A stretch of DNA of 64,000 nucleotides from Methanomassiliicoccales archaeon (lineage in GTDB: Archaea > Thermoplasmatota > Thermoplasmata > RBG-16-68-12 > SOIM01), in contig SOIM01000012.1 of NCBI GenBank assembly GCA_004377185.1, positions 1 to 64,000 on the forward strand. The letters are read 5' to 3'. Below the pieces are notes generated by a model. That model was given only the letters and a program-made list of their open reading frames with translations, did no database searches and was not told the DNA's origin. Below, in pieces: positions 4,367-24,788 of the stretch (within the stretch, counting starts at the first letter, position 1; each line of letters begins with the position of its first letter). Both the position numbers and the translations under genes were made by a program.

Positions 4367-5914
4367 TCATCTAGGTTTGCTTAGCTTCAGAAGTTTCTTA
4401 GAATTCCTAATCGCATACCTCGAAATCTCAGAGAGCCTATTGTCTAGGAACTGACGCAACGGAATGACATAACTATCAATGAATGGTGCGATGTCGCGAA
4501 CTTCATAGTTCGGATATCCTTGGCTGCTCATCGCCTTCTTGAGTTGTGACACGGTGAGATTTGATATCTCCAAGAGACTCTTGAGTCCAAGTCTGCTGAG
4601 AATGGCTTCGGTTTCTTCTCTGAGGTATTCCTTCTCTCGTTGAGAAATATCTTTGACGAGGAAATCAAGAGAAAGCATGTCTGCAAGGTCAAGAAAAGTG
4701 ACATCGAAGTCAGTCAGCAATTCTTGGAACGTCTTTCTGTCCCTTTTGAAGAAAGCTGTCCATTTCTGGTAGAAATCTTTCTGGGCTGGTCTAAGAGTAG
4801 TAGGGTCTTCTGGATAGAAATAGGCATCATTGACAATCAGGGGAATAGCCACAAGACCTGCACGCTTGAGCTCTTCCATATTCAGACTAGGTATCTCTGA
4901 GAAATGCTTCCGTACGAAATCCTCAGCAGTGGAGAATCTGGAAGAAACCCTCAGGATGCTGACTGACTGGTTCCTCGTAGCTTTGCCCCTTGTGTATAAC
5001 CAACCCGGAGCGACAATCCTGTTCGAGACTGCGTTTATTCTTTCTTTCAAATATCTGTCTCCACCCCTTTTCTCTTGCTTCAGAATCAAAAATGTATTGA
5101 ATGATTCCCGGGATGGCTTCCTCTTAGGAGTCATGGCAGACAAGCCTTTGATCAATCTCCTTCCGCTCATTTTCCTTCTCACCAAATCGAGCAAATCACT
5201 TCCTTTGCCGAGTTCGTAAACCATAAAACTGAGTTGAGGATCAGACAGTTCCAAGCTGACTTTGTTTCTTTCGATGGCGTCCATATCACTTCTTAGGTAT
5301 CGTCGAAAATCCTCCAAATCAAACACTCCTCCTCGACTTCGCAGATATACAACGGATTTGACAAAGGTTTCACCTTCTGGCGAATAGACCGGGCCAGTAT
5401 CCAAAAAGACTATGTTCTCGCCCAAGAAAGCCCTCAGAATTGATTTCGTCAGTCTCTTTCGGCGTCGGTTCAGTTTCTCTGAGGTGATGTGGAGTACAAG
5501 ATGATGAAAGACCTCTATTCCAAACTCATCCACAATTGCGTCTCTACATCTGTTTTGAATTGCTTGATCAGCCACTTCCTCCAGGAATAGTGAATCTGAG
5601 GAAGGAATCTCATCCAAACGCCTGAAAAGAGAGAGTGTAGATTCTCCATCGTCAATGGACTTACCGACAACAAATGCGGGAAATCTTCTCTCTATGGCGT
5701 CTTCGAACTCAGAAAGCAATGTCTTTATGGTCCGCAGTTTTGCCTTTGTCTTCTCATATTCCTCCAGTCTGTCGTAGAGCCAAGGAATCAAACCAGCTAT
5801 GAACGTGATGAGAGACACAATCGCTCCTAAGGTATTCTGAAGTAGGAATAGAACGACAAACAGCGATATTGCGACAAGGGACATCAATAGTCCGACAACA
5901 GATTTCCTCCGCAC
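4367..5914 (-). CDS. Hypothetical protein with N-terminal two-TM hairpin
   Basis: 515 aa uninterrupted ORF; N-term VVGLLMSLVAISLFVVLFLLQNTLGAIVSLITFIAGLIPWLYD hydrophobic. Confidence 0.7.
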   Translation of the reverse strand: MRRKSVVGLLMSLVAISLFVVLFLLQNTLGAIVSLITFIAGLIPWLYDRLEEYEKTKAKLRTIKTLLSEFEDAIERRFPAFVVGKSIDDGESTLSLFRRLDEIPSSDSLFLEEVADQAIQNRCRDAIVDEFGIEVFHHLVLHITSEKLNRRRKRLTKSILRAFLGENIVFLDTGPVYSPEGETFVKSVVYLRSRGGVFDLEDFRRYLRSDMDAIERNKVSLELSDPQLSFMVYELGKGSDLLDLVRRKMSGRRLIKGLSAMTPKRKPSRESFNTFLILKQEKRGGDRYLKERINAVSNRIVAPGWLYTRGKATRNQSVSILRVSSRFSTAEDFVRKHFSEIPSLNMEELKRAGLVAIPLIVNDAYFYPEDPTTLRPAQKDFYQKWTAFFKRDRKTFQELLTDFDVTFLDLADMLSLDFLVKDISQREKEYLREETEAILSRLGLKSLLEISNLTVSQLKKAMSSQGYPNYEVRDIAPFIDSYVIPLRQFLDNRLSEISRYAIRNSKKLLKLSKPR

Positions 5915-6065
5915 ATTCGAAAATCGGCTTTGGTGCTATAAAAGGTTGCTCCGTCGCCAACCCTTTCCCTAAGGGCTTTCGTGCTAGAAATCAGATTCTG
6001 TTGAGTAAATTCCAACGTTGAAGCCGCCAAATATGTGTTGCTCCGTGAATAGGGATCAAGGGCAA

Positions 6066-6180
6066 AGGATTCCAACCTTTAGTCAACAACCCCCCAGTGG
6101 CTTGACTTTTGACAGAATCTCCAAGCTTCGTCGGGCTCCATTGGCAGAGAACCCCTCCCGCCTTGGATAGAGAGAGATGC
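6066..6180. repeat. Interspersed repeat copy B
   Basis: GGATTCCAACCTTTAGTCAACAACCCCCCAGTGGCTTGA plus downstream TCTCCAAGCTTCGTCGGGCTCCATTGGCAGA similar to C and D. Confidence 0.75.
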
Positions 6181-6246
6181 CTCATGGTCCATTGAATTGC
6201 CAATGTGCGGAAACATTTATGGTTGATTCATGGGATGTGCTGAATC

Positions 6247-6873
6247 GTGTACAGAGAGTATTCGAAGATATCTGGAATTCGCTTTGATGAGCAACTTCAG
6301 GCGTTTGAGGTTGACGTGTATCCAGTATTTTCACGAGATTGGCCTACTGCTGGAGAAGTACCGGAGTCCTCTCCACTGCCATTCCCATTGGGGCACAGAT
6401 GTGTTGGCCTCGACCTCTTGAGAGATGTGAGAAGTCGGTTTCCCAATCTCGCCGTGGTGTTTCGAGATGGAAACGTTGACGAAGACATCTTCATCAAAAC
6501 AGATATCTCTCATCCATCCTTGCAGAAGAGGATTCTAAGAGCCGAAGGCCCTCGGCTGTTTGGACGCAACCTTGGCGCAGGTAAACGAGTAACTTATCTT
6601 ATCGCCGAAGTGGGAGGACTCGACCTGCTTGGTCTTGCTGAAGGATTCGTCAATCAATGCGCTCCGGCTGTCTTCTTCTATTGTGCGAATGTGGAGGAAA
6701 CATCTTCAGAGGATTTGATTCGCGCTCTGGAGGATTCCTTAGATGAGACGAGCCTGATCCGCGAACTCATGAGGTGCTGTGATCTCCTTCTCAGCACAGG
6801 ACCCGATGCATATTACTTCACCGTTCGGTCAAAGGAAGAATCCTCCCTGAGGGGCGTTGTCGAATCGAGCTAA
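6247..6873 (+). CDS. Hypothetical protein
   Basis: 208 aa ORF lying between repeat copies B and C. Confidence 0.55.
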   Translation: MYREYSKISGIRFDEQLQAFEVDVYPVFSRDWPTAGEVPESSPLPFPLGHRCVGLDLLRDVRSRFPNLAVVFRDGNVDEDIFIKTDISHPSLQKRILRAEGPRLFGRNLGAGKRVTYLIAEVGGLDLLGLAEGFVNQCAPAVFFYCANVEETSSEDLIRALEDSLDETSLIRELMRCCDLLLSTGPDAYYFTVRSKEESSLRGVVESS

Positions 6874-6926
6874 TGAGTTACTGGAAGCATGTATTGGAAA
6901 TCCAATATGTGACAAGGGAAGTTGCG

Positions 6927-7045
6927 CGTGGGGGTTCCAACCTCAGTCAACTACCCCCCCAGTGGCTTACAATTGAGTAATCTCCTAGTCAAACTCTGTC
7001 AGGTTCCATCGGCTTGATGTGTCATTGTCCGAAAGGAAATGCGAT
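6927..7045. repeat. Interspersed repeat copy C
   Basis: GGTTCCAACCTCAGTCAACTACCCCCCCAGTGGCTTACAATTGAGTAATCTCCTAGTCAA...GTCAGGTTCCATCGG...GTCATTGTCCGAAAGG. Confidence 0.8.
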
Positions 7046-11224: not shown

Positions 11225-11876
11225 GGTGGGATGTATCCTGTTACAGCGAACGGTGGAGTGGATTAGAGCTAAGAGAATTTCTGTGCGCCAGAGGAAGGAT
11301 GATGGCGTAGGAGCACTTGCAGCATTGCTTTACTATCCGGGTCTTTCTTGCAGGAAGACCAGAGATGCGTTGAGGGAATAGGTGGATGTCTCTCACGAAG
11401 CAATCAGACAGTGGTACCATAGGATCAGAGATGTCTTCCCTGAGTCAAGGAGAGAGCGTAGAAGAATGGTACCCATAGATGAGACAAAGATCAAAGATAG
11501 AGAAAAATTGATGTATCTGTGGGCGATGGACACAGACACTAGAGAGATTCTCTCTGTCTATCTGTCCACTGCAAGAAGCGGACTAGACACGCTGAGATCT
11601 CTCAAAAAGACAATGAGATACTGCAGGAACAAGCCACTCGTACTGATAGATAGAGGCCCATGGTATCCATGGGCATTGCAGAGATATGGATTGAAGTGGA
11701 GACATGAGACATTTGGAGAGAGGAATCCAAGAGAGCAGTGGTTTGGTATAGTTATGCATCGAACCAAGAGATTTTGGAACAAGTTTCCTCATAGTTCCAT
11801 GAATTCCACCTTTTCGTGGATGTTGTCATTCATGGCTATATACAATTCATGGAGGTGTCATGTTGACACATTCTGA
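11225..11876 (+). pseudogene. DDE transposase interrupted by in-frame TAG
   Basis: RISVRQRKDDGVGALAALLYYPGLSCRKTRDALRE*VDVSHEAIRQWYHRI...IDETKI...DRGPWYPWALQRYGLKWRHETFGERN; TAG at 11379-11381. Confidence 0.75.
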
Positions 11877-17111: not shown

Positions 17112-17552
17112 CTAACTTTTCCAACTTTCAATTTTTTCACAGTCGTAGCATTTTCCGTTATGGATGGAGATTGTGCCACCGCATTTCGGGCATCCGTGCC
17201 TTTTCCGTTCATTTTCTAGAAAAGTGTCAATGCCGTCATACTTAATCTCATTAAGATTTTCGATTGGGCTTGTGTTGAAATTTTTTCTGTAGCGTTCATC
17301 TATATGTTCAAGTCTTTCACAGGGAAAGTCTTCGCATTCAAAGCAAAAATCTACCTCATTATTGCTAAGTTTATTGCAACGTTTTTTGAGGTAAGCGCAT
17401 TGTTTGTTGCGGGGGCGACATCCTATGCAATGACTGATCTTACCTGCCTTTTTGGGAATATTCCTTGAATAGGCTAGATAGTGACTGCAAGCTCCACAAT
17501 TAATTCCGCAAGGCGCGACCAACTCTGCCTTCTCTCTGGGCATCAAGTACAC
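17112..17552 (-). CDS. DUF3795-type cysteine-rich protein
   Basis: VAPCGINCGACSHYLAY...CIGCRP...CAYLKKRC...FCFECEDFPCERL plus C-terminal zinc ribbon. Confidence 0.75.
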   Translation of the reverse strand: MYLMPREKAELVAPCGINCGACSHYLAYSRNIPKKAGKISHCIGCRPRNKQCAYLKKRCNKLSNNEVDFCFECEDFPCERLEHIDERYRKNFNTSPIENLNEIKYDGIDTFLENERKRHGCPKCGGTISIHNGKCYDCEKIESWKS

Positions 17553-19590: not shown

Positions 19591-20805
19591 TCATCTCGGA
19601 CAGGGATGTTCCTCGTCTGGGAACCAAGCATCTGGCAATGCTCTTTTGACTCTGCTCTTTGACATGTCTCTCAATTCCATTGATTTCCTCTTGCTAACTT
19701 TTTTGTTCTCGAGCGTTTTGCTATGGAAAGAGAATCCGTGACGCACGCAGATATTATGTCTTCTTACGTTCCTCCTGAATTCCTTGACTTGCCTATCTGT
19801 CCATTTGGGATGTATGTAGTAGTCTTCTCGAGTCTGTGATTTTCGGGAGTTGAAATTATCGAACAATTGGTCAAGCGGTCTGAACCTGCAGTCGTCCACT
19901 TGGACCCTCCAGTTCCAACATTTCACTCTTTTCTTCTCCATCTTCGTGTACGGGATTTCCCAGTTGAACATCATGAAGATGCCGATGTCCTTATGAGCGA
20001 ATCCTGCGTCTTCCAAAATCTGGACTTGCTTTTCAATTCGAGGATGGTTGCCGTACTTAGTATCCCATGCAATCTTCGGATTCACAAATCTTGCCTTTCT
20101 CAGAAGCTTCCCCAGATGGGGATTCTTCTCTAGAATCCTCCCATCAAATCCGCTCTGGGACTCGCAGACCATGGACTTTCCTTTCCACCTGGTCTTCGCC
20201 AATTCCTCCAGTATGTTCTTAATCGATGGATTGGCCAGGAGATTGTTGTCATAGAACACAATCTTGTTGTTGCATATCAGACGTCTCACACTCTTTTTGA
20301 AGCTTATCTCAGGCTCAACTTTCCATGTGCCGCAAAACGAACATCTCCTGGGGCAGCCCCGCGATGCATGCAGAATCTGACAGTCTAGAGGCCCCGGATT
20401 AGTCTTAATGAGCGAGTAGTCGGCCTTGTATTTTTCTGCCGATTTGAAGATTCCCTTACGTGGTTTGACTCTGTATCTGTCGCAGGTCTCCTTGAATCTG
20501 GGATCATCAAACATCAAGGATACGTATATGCCACCCACTCGAATCTCCGCTTCTGGAAAGCGGTCACGATAGAACTCAACGCTTTCCCAGAATTCCTCAC
20601 TCCAGTAGGTGAACAGAGATGTGATGTAGATCTCATCCGGGGTGAAGTTCACATCCAAATTGCCCCGAACCAATTGGACCCTTTGGGCGTGCCTTCTGCG
20701 TTTCAAATAGGCACCGATCTTGAGCAGCCCTATTGGTAGGAAGTTCTTATGATTCCGGCTCTTCTTTGGAATTGGGAAATCAGGCTCGACTAGAAGGAAA
20801 TCCAC
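19591..20805 (-). CDS. Radical SAM protein of B12-binding-like architecture
   Basis: CxxxCxxC in ASRGCPRRCSFCGTW; N-term VEPDFPIPKKSRNHKNFLPIGLLKIGAYLKRR. Confidence 0.8.
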   Translation of the reverse strand: MDFLLVEPDFPIPKKSRNHKNFLPIGLLKIGAYLKRRRHAQRVQLVRGNLDVNFTPDEIYITSLFTYWSEEFWESVEFYRDRFPEAEIRVGGIYVSLMFDDPRFKETCDRYRVKPRKGIFKSAEKYKADYSLIKTNPGPLDCQILHASRGCPRRCSFCGTWKVEPEISFKKSVRRLICNNKIVFYDNNLLANPSIKNILEELAKTRWKGKSMVCESQSGFDGRILEKNPHLGKLLRKARFVNPKIAWDTKYGNHPRIEKQVQILEDAGFAHKDIGIFMMFNWEIPYTKMEKKRVKCWNWRVQVDDCRFRPLDQLFDNFNSRKSQTREDYYIHPKWTDRQVKEFRRNVRRHNICVRHGFSFHSKTLENKKVSKRKSMELRDMSKSRVKRALPDAWFPDEEHPCPR

Positions 20806-21679
20806 TCTCTACACCTCCAACAATCAGCGGCGGACGCACGGGGCTTGCCTCAACTTTATCGGAATAGACTTGGAAAAGGGGGCAATTTAGGATTGATTTG
20901 AGACTTAGCCTTTTTGGGAATACAATCCTCTTGCTGTATTTGAGATCGAAAATGAAATGCATCATGGGCACGTTACCGGTTCCTTTGTAGTGAAAACAGC
21001 GATATGCCCTGAGAGAGAATCTGAAGGTTCTTCCATAGTCTTCAATGAGATGAGGGACATAGACCTTAAGCTTGTGTTTGACACCATGAGAGAGGTACCA
21101 ATTGATTGTATCTTGGGCATTGATGCCGAGTTCAGCCAGTTCCTCTCGAATGTGATGAAGATTGAGATCATATTCCTGGCCTCTCTTTTCTCTGAATCCC
21201 ACCGTGAGGAAAAGGAGGAAGGATGTCTGTTGATGCATCTGCCGTCTGAAAAGCTCCCGAATTGCGTCGATTCGTAAGTCGTGGACGAGGATGTTTGAGA
21301 ACCCTATGAAGCCTCCTTCAAAGTCGAGGTTGACTACTTGGAACGAGTCCTTGCCAGGGATTTCGCCGACATCGTCCTCCCAGTTCAAAAGTATCGACTC
21401 AACATCACCTTGGAGAATCTGGGTCCTATCACTCAAACCTAGGGATCCTGCAGTCATCTGCATTATTCCGAGATTCTCGGTCTTATTTTCCACCGCTATG
21501 ATGAAGCCCAGGTAGTCCCCCCACTCTTTCACGTCGAGCATTGAAGGACCTGGCATCCCGAAGTATGTTATGTCATCATATGGCTGCTGGAACTTGCTTC
21601 GTATCGCAGCAACATCATATTCTCTCCGTAACAAGTCTTTGGGACGATTCGTCACAAACATCTCCAAATCCATCCTCAC
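20780..21679 (-). CDS. Putative SAM-dependent methyltransferase-like protein
   Basis: YFGMPGPSMLDVKEWGDYLGFIIAVENKTENLGIM...VVNLDFEGGF; GTGA overlap with upstream ATPase. Confidence 0.5.
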   Translation of the reverse strand: MRMDLEMFVTNRPKDLLRREYDVAAIRSKFQQPYDDITYFGMPGPSMLDVKEWGDYLGFIIAVENKTENLGIMQMTAGSLGLSDRTQILQGDVESILLNWEDDVGEIPGKDSFQVVNLDFEGGFIGFSNILVHDLRIDAIRELFRRQMHQQTSFLLFLTVGFREKRGQEYDLNLHHIREELAELGINAQDTINWYLSHGVKHKLKVYVPHLIEDYGRTFRFSLRAYRCFHYKGTGNVPMMHFIFDLKYSKRIVFPKRLSLKSILNCPLFQVYSDKVEASPVRPPLIVGGVESGFPSSRA

Positions 21680-23358
21680 AAGGCGAGCCTGTGTTCAATC
21701 TTTTCAAGGACATCTCTAATCTCTTCGTCGTTCTTCAATATGGATTCAACTGTAAGAACCTCCATAATTAGGAAAATGGCATCGCTCCAATCTGAGTGGC
21801 CCACTCGATGACACATCTCCTCTACTGCGCCAGGAATCCACTTGGGAAGGGGCTTTTCTTCCTCTACACCTGCCACGGCCTCTGCAGGAAGCCCTTCCTC
21901 TATTTCCCCCACAAACTCACGGCCACATCCAGAGCACGTGGTCTCGTCCGCACCCAGAACTACGCCACAATCCGGGCATATAGATCCTTCAATCACGGCA
22001 CTCTCCTCTGCTTCAGATGGGGCCTCCTCTGCCAGCACCTCCTCCTTTGGAGGTTCAGAGTTCTTCAGGAGCCAGCTCTCTACCCTTTTGAGTTTTGTTT
22101 CTACCTTCTTTTTCATCACGTTAGGTATCAGCTTGTTTTTCTTGTCATTCCTCAGGTTGTCTCGGAGTCTCTTTGCGTTCGTTATGGCACTAAGCCAGTC
22201 TTCTCTGTCAGCGAACTCTGGACGTGTGTTAAGGAGTTCACTAGCTTGCTCGATTCTTTGTTCAGCTCGCATTTTTGCTGACTTCGTCCGACTCATCTTG
22301 ACGATGCTCTTCAGGACTTTCTTCCTGAGTGCTTCTTCAAGGGCATCACGATCTGGGGATGCTTCGAATTCGACTCGCTCGGTGTTCGGTAACAGCCTAC
22401 TCGAGGTAATATGAATCTCGCCAGTGACATATTCCACCAGATGTTTGTTCTTCACATCTGCAAAGACATTGGCCACGGTTGACCGATTGCCTATGGCGAA
22501 GCCCTTTTTTCTATATAGAAGTCCTCGGGATTGTTCATCATCTATCTTCCCGGTCTTGCTGTTCTGGCATATCCAATAGACGCCCACAAGCCTTTTACCC
22601 TTATTGATGGTTCCGAAATCTGGTGAATCGAGGCTGATGTACTTCGGGGATTTGTAGACTGGTTTGCCGTCAAGTTTGAGGTCCACAACCTTGAAGTCCC
22701 GTCCAAGCTGTTTCTTGAGGTGAGAATCTATCTTGCCTCGATATGGGAAAGTCCGCTCGAACTTGACAGGGACCGTCGTCTCGAGATAGTTTCTCACACT
22801 GTCATAATCCAGAATCTCCTCGAAATCTTCATTAATGTCAATGAGCTGGACGACAGTGCCATAGCGCCTTCTGAGGGCTTTGGATGCTGGTATTTCCTTC
22901 CATCCAACATTGCTCTCAAGACTCTCAACCAGTGATATGGACTCCCCTTTCGCCACATCTTTCCGCAGTCCTTTGCAGTCAATGATGATGTGGTAGTAGT
23001 TCTGGTTGTCTGTTCGTTTTGTCGTCAGAACAACCCGGTCGCATATTGCCACACCTGAGTAGATACCAATGCCTCTAAAGCCTATGTTCTCGACGACATC
23101 CTTGGGCGAGAACCCCACCCTTACAGCCTCTCTGATTCCATCGAAGTCCATACCTGGACCATTGCCGCTGATAGTGACCTTTTTTGATTCAAGCTTCAGT
23201 TCGATTTTAGATGCGGGAGGCTCGTTGTCCATCTCATTCGAAATATATTCTCTCAGCACATTCATTGGATTCTTATACAACCCTGTTGTGATTGACTCCA
23301 TCAGGAATATTCCGACATCGTCCACTCCGAATTCAAACGACTTGAGGTCTTCTTCCAA
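21676..23358 (-). CDS. GHKL (Hsp90/MORC-like) ATPase with C-terminal zinc ribbon
   Basis: LREYISNEMDNEP, SGNGPGMD, NIGFRGIGIYSGV; CPDCGVVLGADETTCSGCG; TTG start preceded by AGAGGAGGG. Confidence 0.8.
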   Translation of the reverse strand: MEEDLKSFEFGVDDVGIFLMESITTGLYKNPMNVLREYISNEMDNEPPASKIELKLESKKVTISGNGPGMDFDGIREAVRVGFSPKDVVENIGFRGIGIYSGVAICDRVVLTTKRTDNQNYYHIIIDCKGLRKDVAKGESISLVESLESNVGWKEIPASKALRRRYGTVVQLIDINEDFEEILDYDSVRNYLETTVPVKFERTFPYRGKIDSHLKKQLGRDFKVVDLKLDGKPVYKSPKYISLDSPDFGTINKGKRLVGVYWICQNSKTGKIDDEQSRGLLYRKKGFAIGNRSTVANVFADVKNKHLVEYVTGEIHITSSRLLPNTERVEFEASPDRDALEEALRKKVLKSIVKMSRTKSAKMRAEQRIEQASELLNTRPEFADREDWLSAITNAKRLRDNLRNDKKNKLIPNVMKKKVETKLKRVESWLLKNSEPPKEEVLAEEAPSEAEESAVIEGSICPDCGVVLGADETTCSGCGREFVGEIEEGLPAEAVAGVEEEKPLPKWIPGAVEEMCHRVGHSDWSDAIFLIMEVLTVESILKNDEEIRDVLEKIEHRLAL

Positions 23359-23393
23359 GTGAAACCCTCCTCTTGAGTTTTGTGTCTGTTTTT

Positions 23394-24359
23394 CTACCAA
23401 ATGCAATTGCATCTTATAAAAGTATAGTCCATGCCCAAGGAATCCCACATAGACAATGTCTCCTTGCAGAGTGCAACTTTGTCATAGTTATGTTGTTGGG
23501 AAAGATGACCCATCAAAGTCATGTAGACTTCCTTCCTCAGATCGGAACAAGTTCTTCTTCCCCAACCAGATTTCTCAGAGATGTATTCCGTCCAAGACTT
23601 GTCCTTCGCTTTCCTTACTGTACTCTGCAGACCCCTCAGTGTACCCAGTGTTATTCTTTCAGGAACGAATCTGTCGAAGATGGAGTCAATCAAACTACAA
23701 TACTGCTCCTTCCAGTCTGAGACGGGGACTATCGGGTCAATCCTTATCCGTGTTTCATATCCCGCATCATATACCTTGCCCGCGGCACGGATTCTATCCT
23801 GCAGACCTGGTGCCCTTTCCCATCTGCTCGAGACCGATTCCGCGTTCATGCTGAAACTCATTATTGTGTTTGAGTGTTGCTGGATGTCAAGCAAATTGGA
23901 CACTCTGGCAGACTTCGTAAGGAAGAGCACCTTGTGCCTCTTCTGTGCCTCAAACATGGGTATGACAAATCTAGAGAACGGGTCCGGAACGCTTTCCCAC
24001 ATCAATGAATCTGCAAGCTCACCGGTATTCAGAACCTCGTCTTCGCCGTTGTGTTCAAAGAATGCCAGCAAATGTTTCTTCACTTTGTCGAAATCCTTGA
24101 CTACAGGCCTTGTCCCAGTTGGCAAAAGCCTCAGGGTCCCTTTGAGGTAACACCATGCACAGTCAAAAGGACATCCATACGCCCACTTCAACTCAACAAA
24201 GTGAGGACATACTACATCGGTTTCCCGTTTTGGCAAAGGAGTCCTCTCAAACCTCTTGACAATTGAACCATCGGAGATCTGCTGAACGAGAGTTTTCATA
24301 CTTCCGTCTAGCATCTCATATTCCTTCATCTTTACCTTCAACCTTATGCCTCTCCTCAT
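23394..24359 (-). CDS. Radical SAM protein, spore-photoproduct-lyase-like
   Basis: WAYGCPFDCAWCYLKG (Cx3Cx2C), ADSLMWESVPDPFSRFVIPMF; start uncertain (listed ORF to 24470). Confidence 0.75.
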   Translation of the reverse strand: MRRGIRLKVKMKEYEMLDGSMKTLVQQISDGSIVKRFERTPLPKRETDVVCPHFVELKWAYGCPFDCAWCYLKGTLRLLPTGTRPVVKDFDKVKKHLLAFFEHNGEDEVLNTGELADSLMWESVPDPFSRFVIPMFEAQKRHKVLFLTKSARVSNLLDIQQHSNTIMSFSMNAESVSSRWERAPGLQDRIRAAGKVYDAGYETRIRIDPIVPVSDWKEQYCSLIDSIFDRFVPERITLGTLRGLQSTVRKAKDKSWTEYISEKSGWGRRTCSDLRKEVYMTLMGHLSQQHNYDKVALCKETLSMWDSLGMDYTFIRCNCIW

Positions 24360-24440
24360 CGCTCTGCCCCAACTTACCGAACCTACTCTCCTCGATTCTG
24401 AATATCCCACATTTCTACTATAATCTTTGCCGTTCCCAAA

Positions 24441-24788
24441 ATGGTCACAAGGATCCGTTGGTGCTCTCAAAGATTGCGGAAGCTAAAGCAGAGTGGAAAA
24501 CACGTTAAGAAAGTGTATGTTGCTAGTCTATGCGAGGGCCCAGTTAGATGCGATTCTCACATGCACATACACTTAGTTCCTCGCTATGAAGGAGATCGCG
24601 AAGGGTTTGGTTTCTTGGGTGAAAGAGAAGAGAAGTTTGGAATGTTAAGAGACTACCTGATCACAGTAGGCTCGTGGGACTTGTATAAAGGAACTTTGCG
24701 AGTTGAGTACCTTAAGAAGATTAGGGAAGATATTGGTAGGAATTGTGGTGACTGTAAAAAGAAGGGAAGTTGTGAGCACCAAGGCTGA
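24441..24788 (+). pseudogene. Truncated HIT-family protein
   Basis: HIT-like motif SHMHIHLVPRY with no recognisable N-terminal half; an alternate frame just upstream gives LVLSKIAEAKAEW. Confidence 0.45.

Follow-up and report, generated by a model that had tools for sequence, protein, structure and literature searches.

What would an archaeon gain from a compact operon that sets two radical S-adenosylmethionine (SAM) enzymes beside an ATPase of the GHKL family? The question is raised by a 64,000-nucleotide stretch of DNA, here called the window, from a Methanomassiliicoccales archaeon (GenBank assembly GCA_004377185.1, contig SOIM01000012.1, positions 1 to 64,000 of the forward strand), which is part of a 165-kb contig of that genome. 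Four open reading frames (ORFs) follow one another on the minus strand within positions 19591-24359, and all operon features described below lie on that strand. Gene 1 (23394-24359) encodes a radical SAM enzyme resembling spore photoproduct lyase (SPL), gene 2 (21676-23358) the GHKL ATPase, gene 3 (20780-21679) an orphan protein and gene 4 (19591-20805) a radical SAM enzyme of the cobalamin type. An original prediction, made from the sequence of the window, had described the four as a repair, modification or defense module. Comparison with other genomes and viruses ties the gene 2/gene 4 pair to defense or modification loci, whereas photoproduct repair by gene 1 is unlikely.

The evidence for this begins with the pairing itself (loci used in the comparison carry L numbers). 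Of 17 viral-contig loci retrieved with GHKL, 15 carry a gene-4 homolog directly next to it on the same strand; of the two exceptions, one is a contig end and the other an additional GHKL copy on a contig that had been counted before. From the gene-4 side, a GHKL gene lies within 6 kb in 22 of 58 loci, and L117-L120, L122-L125, L131, L132, L168, L171, L173, L181 and L182 are among the loci retrieved with gene 4 that carry a GHKL neighbor. Some contigs belong to both sets, which makes the two counts partly dependent on each other. On plasmids of Bradyrhizobium, Novosphingobium and Mesorhizobium the genes run in the order DGQHR, radical SAM, GHKL. Three loci on rhizobial-type plasmids additionally have a second GHKL gene and a PIN-like (PIN_8) protein beside this operon (L014, 5095-8539; L015, 4989-8542; L018, 5077-8560).

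The surroundings of gene 4 extend the association beyond the pair. A GHKL, Drm, DndB/DGQHR or ParB-like gene occurs within 6 kb of gene 4 in 35 of the 58 loci (30 of 53 after dropping five that had been retrieved through another gene), compared with 1 of 70 for defense-type neighbors in gene-1-family loci, which were processed identically as a control. In L124, PADLOC models identify DrmA (3.5e-161) and DrmB (1e-52) beside the gene-4/GHKL pair. In L133 they identify DrmC (9e-14), DrmB (6e-20) and DrmA (1e-64), and gene 4 directly follows drmA-drmB-drmC and a large protein; this copy, from an archaeon of the same class, is the closest relative of the gene 4 in the window (sister, 59% identity, support 99/94). 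Profiles built from these two loci detect drm genes in L136, L164, L165, L167, L168, L170, L174, L176 and L180. In L168 the neighbor of gene 4 encodes a DndB protein (Pfam PF14072, 2.8e-14), similar proteins adjoin gene 4 in L165, L167 and L172, and in L120 its neighbors are ParB-like genes and an SNF2-type helicase, the ParB-like pattern recurring in L119, L123 and L131. Mapped onto the gene-4 tree, linkage to GHKL requires a minimum of 10 changes and linkage to DISARM a minimum of 8, counts that are somewhat inflated by truncated contigs, and so many changes indicate repeated association. We regard the involvement of the gene 2/gene 4 pair in defense or conflict as well supported.

In the DISARM-like loci, where gene-4 relatives sit with PADLOC-confirmed drmA, drmB and drmC, gene 4 may stand in for the methyltransferase. 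Apart from a spurious 129-amino acid ORF, no [DNS]PP[YFW] methyltransferase motif was found among 73 unlabeled neighbors in 12 such loci, or in eight of them when the flanks were extended, by what was a motif scan and not a profile test, which diverged methyltransferases can escape. The window operon departs from DISARM in several respects: there is no drm hit among its four proteins or the other window proteins scanned, it has neither drmMI nor drmMII, and the DISARM models of PADLOC recognize neither gene 4 nor the GHKL protein. A large protein of 825-1128 amino acids adjoins the drm genes in archaeal DISARM-like gene-4 loci (L133, 8302-11451; L170, 4996-8178; L168, 9553-12882; L132, 2583-5165) and, in those members that were scanned, matches nothing in PADLOC or Pfam; the label DrmE, given to it by position, was dropped after two members failed to match in PADLOC. 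In L124, a NERD-helicase (5359-6990) related to one from a reverse-transcriptase defense system (RTasNERD-Hel, 9e-67) separates DrmB from the radical SAM/GHKL pair.

What kind of enzyme, then, is the product of gene 4? It matches phrog_9298 at 8.9e-28, and its homologs are spread over archaeal and bacterial viruses, genomes of several phyla and alphaproteobacterial plasmids. Scans of viral contigs with genes 2, 3 or 4 singly found nothing, and profiles were needed to detect the viral-contig homologs. In Pfam, 15 of 20 aligned members have the Radical_SAM domain (PF04055) and 10 the B12-binding domain (PF02310), a combination indicating that the family has class B radical SAM architecture; the window protein itself matches the radical SAM core only. 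Its cluster motif, CPRRCSFC (20332-20355), has the CxxxCxxC form shared by all 82 of 82 family members, and a DNN motif (20242-20250) is equally invariant in the family alignment (82/82). An AlphaFold2 model has a mean predicted local distance difference test score (pLDDT) of 73 and is good for most of residues 1-306. In Marinitoga camini virus 1 (L019, 6995-10821) and a Methanofastidiosa virus (L020, 6561-9352), gene-4 homologs lie near an annotated HerA helicase, exonuclease or Holliday junction resolvase.

Gene 2 is, by sequence, a GHKL ATPase of the Hsp90/MutL/MORC type, with a predicted N-terminal Hsp90/HtpG-type domain, a coiled region and a zinc ribbon. It matches HATPase_c_3 (1.1e-6) and the HtpG/Hsp90 N domains (profile matches, 1e-12), and has homologs on rhizobial plasmids (4e-25). 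In an alignment of 25 GHKL proteins the N-box REYISNEMDNE (23221-23253) keeps its catalytic-type Glu and Asn, and the G2 box GFRGIGIYSG (23053-23082) is kept also. The GNGPGMD motif to which the original prediction drew attention is present and can be described more closely: in the G1 box, ISGNGPGMD (23146-23172), SGNGPGM has Gly for the adenine-contacting Asp of the usual DxGxG. The same replacement is seen in the archaeal L132 (ITGNSPGM), and the other 23 of the 25 aligned proteins have Asp. The C-terminal zinc ribbon, CPDCG...CSGCG (21916-21978), is a weak match to Zn_Ribbon_1 (0.014) and is not found in the gene-2 homologs of L036, a locus considered below, or of rhizobial plasmids.

On these grounds we tentatively put forward, at somewhat short of an even chance, that the operon is a horizontally assembled accessory cassette of the DISARM or Dnd type, in which gene 4 marks DNA and the GHKL protein acts as its clamp. 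The core of such a cassette would be the gene 4 enzyme and the gene 2 clamp ATPase. Gene 4 would place a radical-chemistry mark on DNA, for example a methyl group on an unactivated carbon, taking the place that a DNA methyltransferase holds in classical systems, and the GHKL protein would close on the DNA and gate or load the gene 4 enzyme. Gene 1, probably partnered by gene 3, might add or process a second modification. We infer the chemistry of the mark, the role of the clamp and any part of genes 1 and 3, and the parts given to these last two are guesses.

Several observations weigh against this proposal. The marking of DNA by gene 4 is deduced from its position and from its DndB partners, with DNA as its presumed substrate, and taken by itself we consider it possible though doubtful. 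ATP binding by gene 2 is in doubt because the G1 Asp is lost. The cobalamin-ligating DxHxxG motif occurs in 0 of 82 gene-4 homologs; base-off cobalamin binding without the His does occur in some class B radical SAM members. Within its own 18-member clade, the gene 4 of the window is the only one with a GHKL neighbor. No nuclease or helicase was seen in the operon and no further defense gene around it, the full four-gene set was found in two genomes only, the window and L036, and the gene 4 copies of these two belong to separate lineages (p-AU 1.8e-61). The reach of the motif scan for methyltransferases is to be counted here as well.

A broader version, which we think rather unlikely, is that a B12-type radical SAM enzyme and a GHKL clamp together form a modular device for marking DNA, one that is widely exchanged and takes over from the methyltransferase in DISARM-like, Dnd-like and stand-alone defense systems. 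Were it true, there would be a restriction-modification family built on radical chemistry, with a DNA modification not yet known, and the window would hold a compact archaeal form of it that includes a second radical SAM enzyme. Even the narrower proposition that the pair marks DNA would have consequences. It would supply a self-mark in defense that ordinary methylation assays would miss, explain the DISARM-like loci that have no methyltransferase, assign a role to the GHKL proteins of rhizobial plasmids and viral contigs and open the function of TcmP-type radical SAM enzymes to testing. Since it is found in viruses as well as hosts, the pair may serve attack as well as defense.

How near does this come to systems already described? 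PADLOC-DB 2.0.0 assigns the four proteins to no named system, the only hit, a weak one, being that of the GHKL domain to TmtA (0.0045, 60 residues), which bears out the expectation that the operon would not belong to one. As regards Dnd and Dpd (DndB, DGQHR, DpdB), DndB/DGQHR genes adjoin gene-4 homologs in several loci, whereas the window has no DndB, and no dndACDE or dpdA partner came to notice in the loci inspected, where no search aimed at them was made. Prokaryotic MORC/paraMORC GHKL proteins are found in mobile restriction-type neighborhoods with helicases and nucleases (Iyer et al. 2008, PMC2292703). The text of that paper does not mention radical SAM enzymes, whereas the constant GHKL partner here is of the B12-type radical SAM kind; the comparison covers the N-terminal ATPase domain only. 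The YprA-helicase systems ARMADA, BRIGADE and TALON include DISARM-like and Dpd-like loci, with many uncharacterized classes noted by the authors (PMC12458937). They belong to the same wider world as the window cassette, but the main text describing them mentions neither radical SAM enzymes nor GHKL proteins. The literature searched describes no radical SAM/GHKL defense pair, most subscription papers having been outside its reach, so that an earlier description is possible.

The same linkage could be read as the mark of a weapon: the gene-4/GHKL unit might be an antiviral effector that, viperin-like in effect, produces a chain terminator or damages viral nucleic acid when a GHKL sensor is triggered. 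Defense linkage without methyltransferases would fit an effector, as would the carriage of the pair by viruses as well as hosts and the loci in which it stands without any other labeled defense gene (L117 and L134/L182). We nevertheless judge this explanation unlikely, given that gene 4 has the B12-type architecture, from which viperin differs, and that the linkage to DndB/DGQHR points to modification.

The target might also not be DNA at all. Among solved structures, gene 4 is closest in sequence to RimO and, more weakly, to TokK and MiaB, and MiaB/RimO-like enzymes modifying RNA or protein, such as tRNA or ribosomal targets in virus-host conflict, are a conceivable alternative. The RimO and MiaB matches, however, are for the most part limited to the radical SAM core, Pfam detects no RNA-binding (TRAM) domain at the C terminus of the window protein or the aligned members, and the neighbors are DNA-defense genes. 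On balance an RNA or protein substrate seems improbable.

Whether gene 1 belongs to the working unit is a separate matter. Alignment indicates that it is an SPL-like radical SAM enzyme of the three-Cys-motif type, the usual partner of which is TcmP. Its family comprises 66 loci in genome contigs (39-62% identity), many adjoining TcmP, and TcmP was detected within 6 kb in 39 of 70 gene-1-family loci. The iron-sulfur cluster motif CPFDCAWC (24150-24173) has the GCPxxCxxC form in 67 of 79 family members, and a C-terminal CxC (CNC, 23403-23411) is kept in 77 of 79. Gene 1 thus has the C-terminal CxC and the mostly TcmP-adjacent family of the three-Cys-motif radical SAM/TcmP pair (TIGR04474), but TcmP is not in the window operon, and gene 3 has no detectable homology to it. 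The genome encodes a single TcmP, which is carried by another contig and adjoins a radical SAM gene other than gene 1; this second radical SAM/TcmP pair (L194, 7010-9176) has a radical SAM enzyme of the CTHGCPFC type that appears by eye to be DUF5131-like. On viral-type contigs and in a bathyarchaeon, two consecutive SPL-like radical SAM enzymes occur with a convergent TcmP (L023, 6983-10261; L025, 3429-6700; L027).

A lack of co-occurrence of the four genes elsewhere had been named beforehand as a finding that would refute the original prediction, but one case with all four adjacent was found, in a bacterium of another phylum. There (L036) the order is GHKL, gene 3, gene 4, gene 1, TcmP; all five lie together on the same strand without interruption, with housekeeping genes on either side. 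No second four-gene case appeared among 296 genomes of the window's phylum (searched through gene 3), 25 genomes with a gene-1 homolog or 147 genomes of the L036 phylum; genes 1 and 4 mostly occur apart from each other, and the full set is rare. Two cases are few, yet it is unlikely that the four genes became adjacent in both genomes by chance. The separate gene-4 lineages imply that the set was not simply inherited, and it would be either old with gene 4 swapped or assembled twice. The operon looks like an assembly of exchangeable parts.

These distributions bear on a further explanation, in which genes 2 and 4, perhaps with gene 3, form the working unit and gene 1, of the TcmP-pair family, happens to lie beside them as a passenger. 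It would account for L036 being alone among the 70 gene-1-family loci in having GHKL, gene 3 and gene 4 nearby, and for the usual partner of gene 1 lying on another contig here. The same three genes, however, adjoin gene 1 on the same strand in two very distant genomes, and we think a passenger improbable.

The SPL-like core of gene 1 foreseen by the original prediction is real: the protein matches Pfam SPL (PF20903) at 1.3e-18, and its PDB match is spore photoproduct lyase (1.8e-15, core only). The two share the radical SAM core and the CxxxCxxC cluster, but the likeness is confined to the core, and Glu114 of gene 1 occupies, in a profile alignment, the column of what we take to be the catalytic H-atom-donor cysteine of SPL (Cys140/141). 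Photoproduct repair is unlikely because this cysteine is missing, and it was rejected as the leading explanation on that account. An operon for the repair of photoproducts or other DNA lesions, which these matches and the presence of MutL among GHKL proteins might suggest, is thus highly improbable, since SPL models score gene 1 at 39-72 bits against cut-offs of 400-438 and the partner genes are those of modification or restriction.

Gene 3 has one clear relative, in L036 (31% identity). It is weakly like the NCBIfam PP_RS20740 family (NF047698, 1.4e-11, under the family cut-off), for which no match was found in 402 genomes; the controls gave none either, which makes this negative uninformative. 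It has no PDB relative, and its AlphaFold2 model (pLDDT 33) is unusable as a fold. The description of gene 3 as methyltransferase-like, based on motif resemblance by eye alone, is not supported by any profile, PDB or fold match. A relationship to TcmP was considered and rejected, there being neither a profile match nor a PDB relative.

The layout of the operon agrees throughout with what had been read from it before: the ORFs and their coordinates, the overlaps, the motifs (CPFDCAWC, LREYISNEMDNEP, GNGPGMD, GFRGIGIYSGV and CPRRCSFC) and the close spacing of two radical SAM enzymes and a GHKL ATPase, like that of a co-transcribed unit. Gene 1 has 321 amino acids from an ATG, a TTG-started version extending to 24470, and is followed after a 35-bp gap by gene 2, with 560 amino acids from a TTG preceded by GAGGAGGG and a GTG version extending to 23448. 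Genes 2 and 3 share a 4-bp GTGA stop/start overlap (21676-21679). Gene 3 (299 amino acids, GTG start) overlaps by 26 bp (20780-20805) with gene 4, which has 404 amino acids from a GTG preceded by TGGAGGTG. Good ribosome-binding sites precede genes 2 and 4. Each of the four has homologs elsewhere and they are therefore real genes, not chance ORFs.

The accessory character assigned to the neighborhood holds as well. Gene 2 is missing from the four most closely related genomes, one from the same genus and three from the same family. Gene order is shared with the three family members on the prefoldin/FtsY side (from 26498) and breaks off just left of these genes; in the two that have enough flank, thyX-like and other genes stand in place of the operon side. 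The absence of gene 2 from these relatives and the break in synteny mark the operon as accessory. A transposase-like ORF, recognized by eye at window positions 11382-11876, about 8 kb from the operon, may be a relic of mobile DNA. A gene for a cysteine-rich DUF3795 protein (17112-17552) lies downstream of the operon in the same orientation, with two small ORFs in between.

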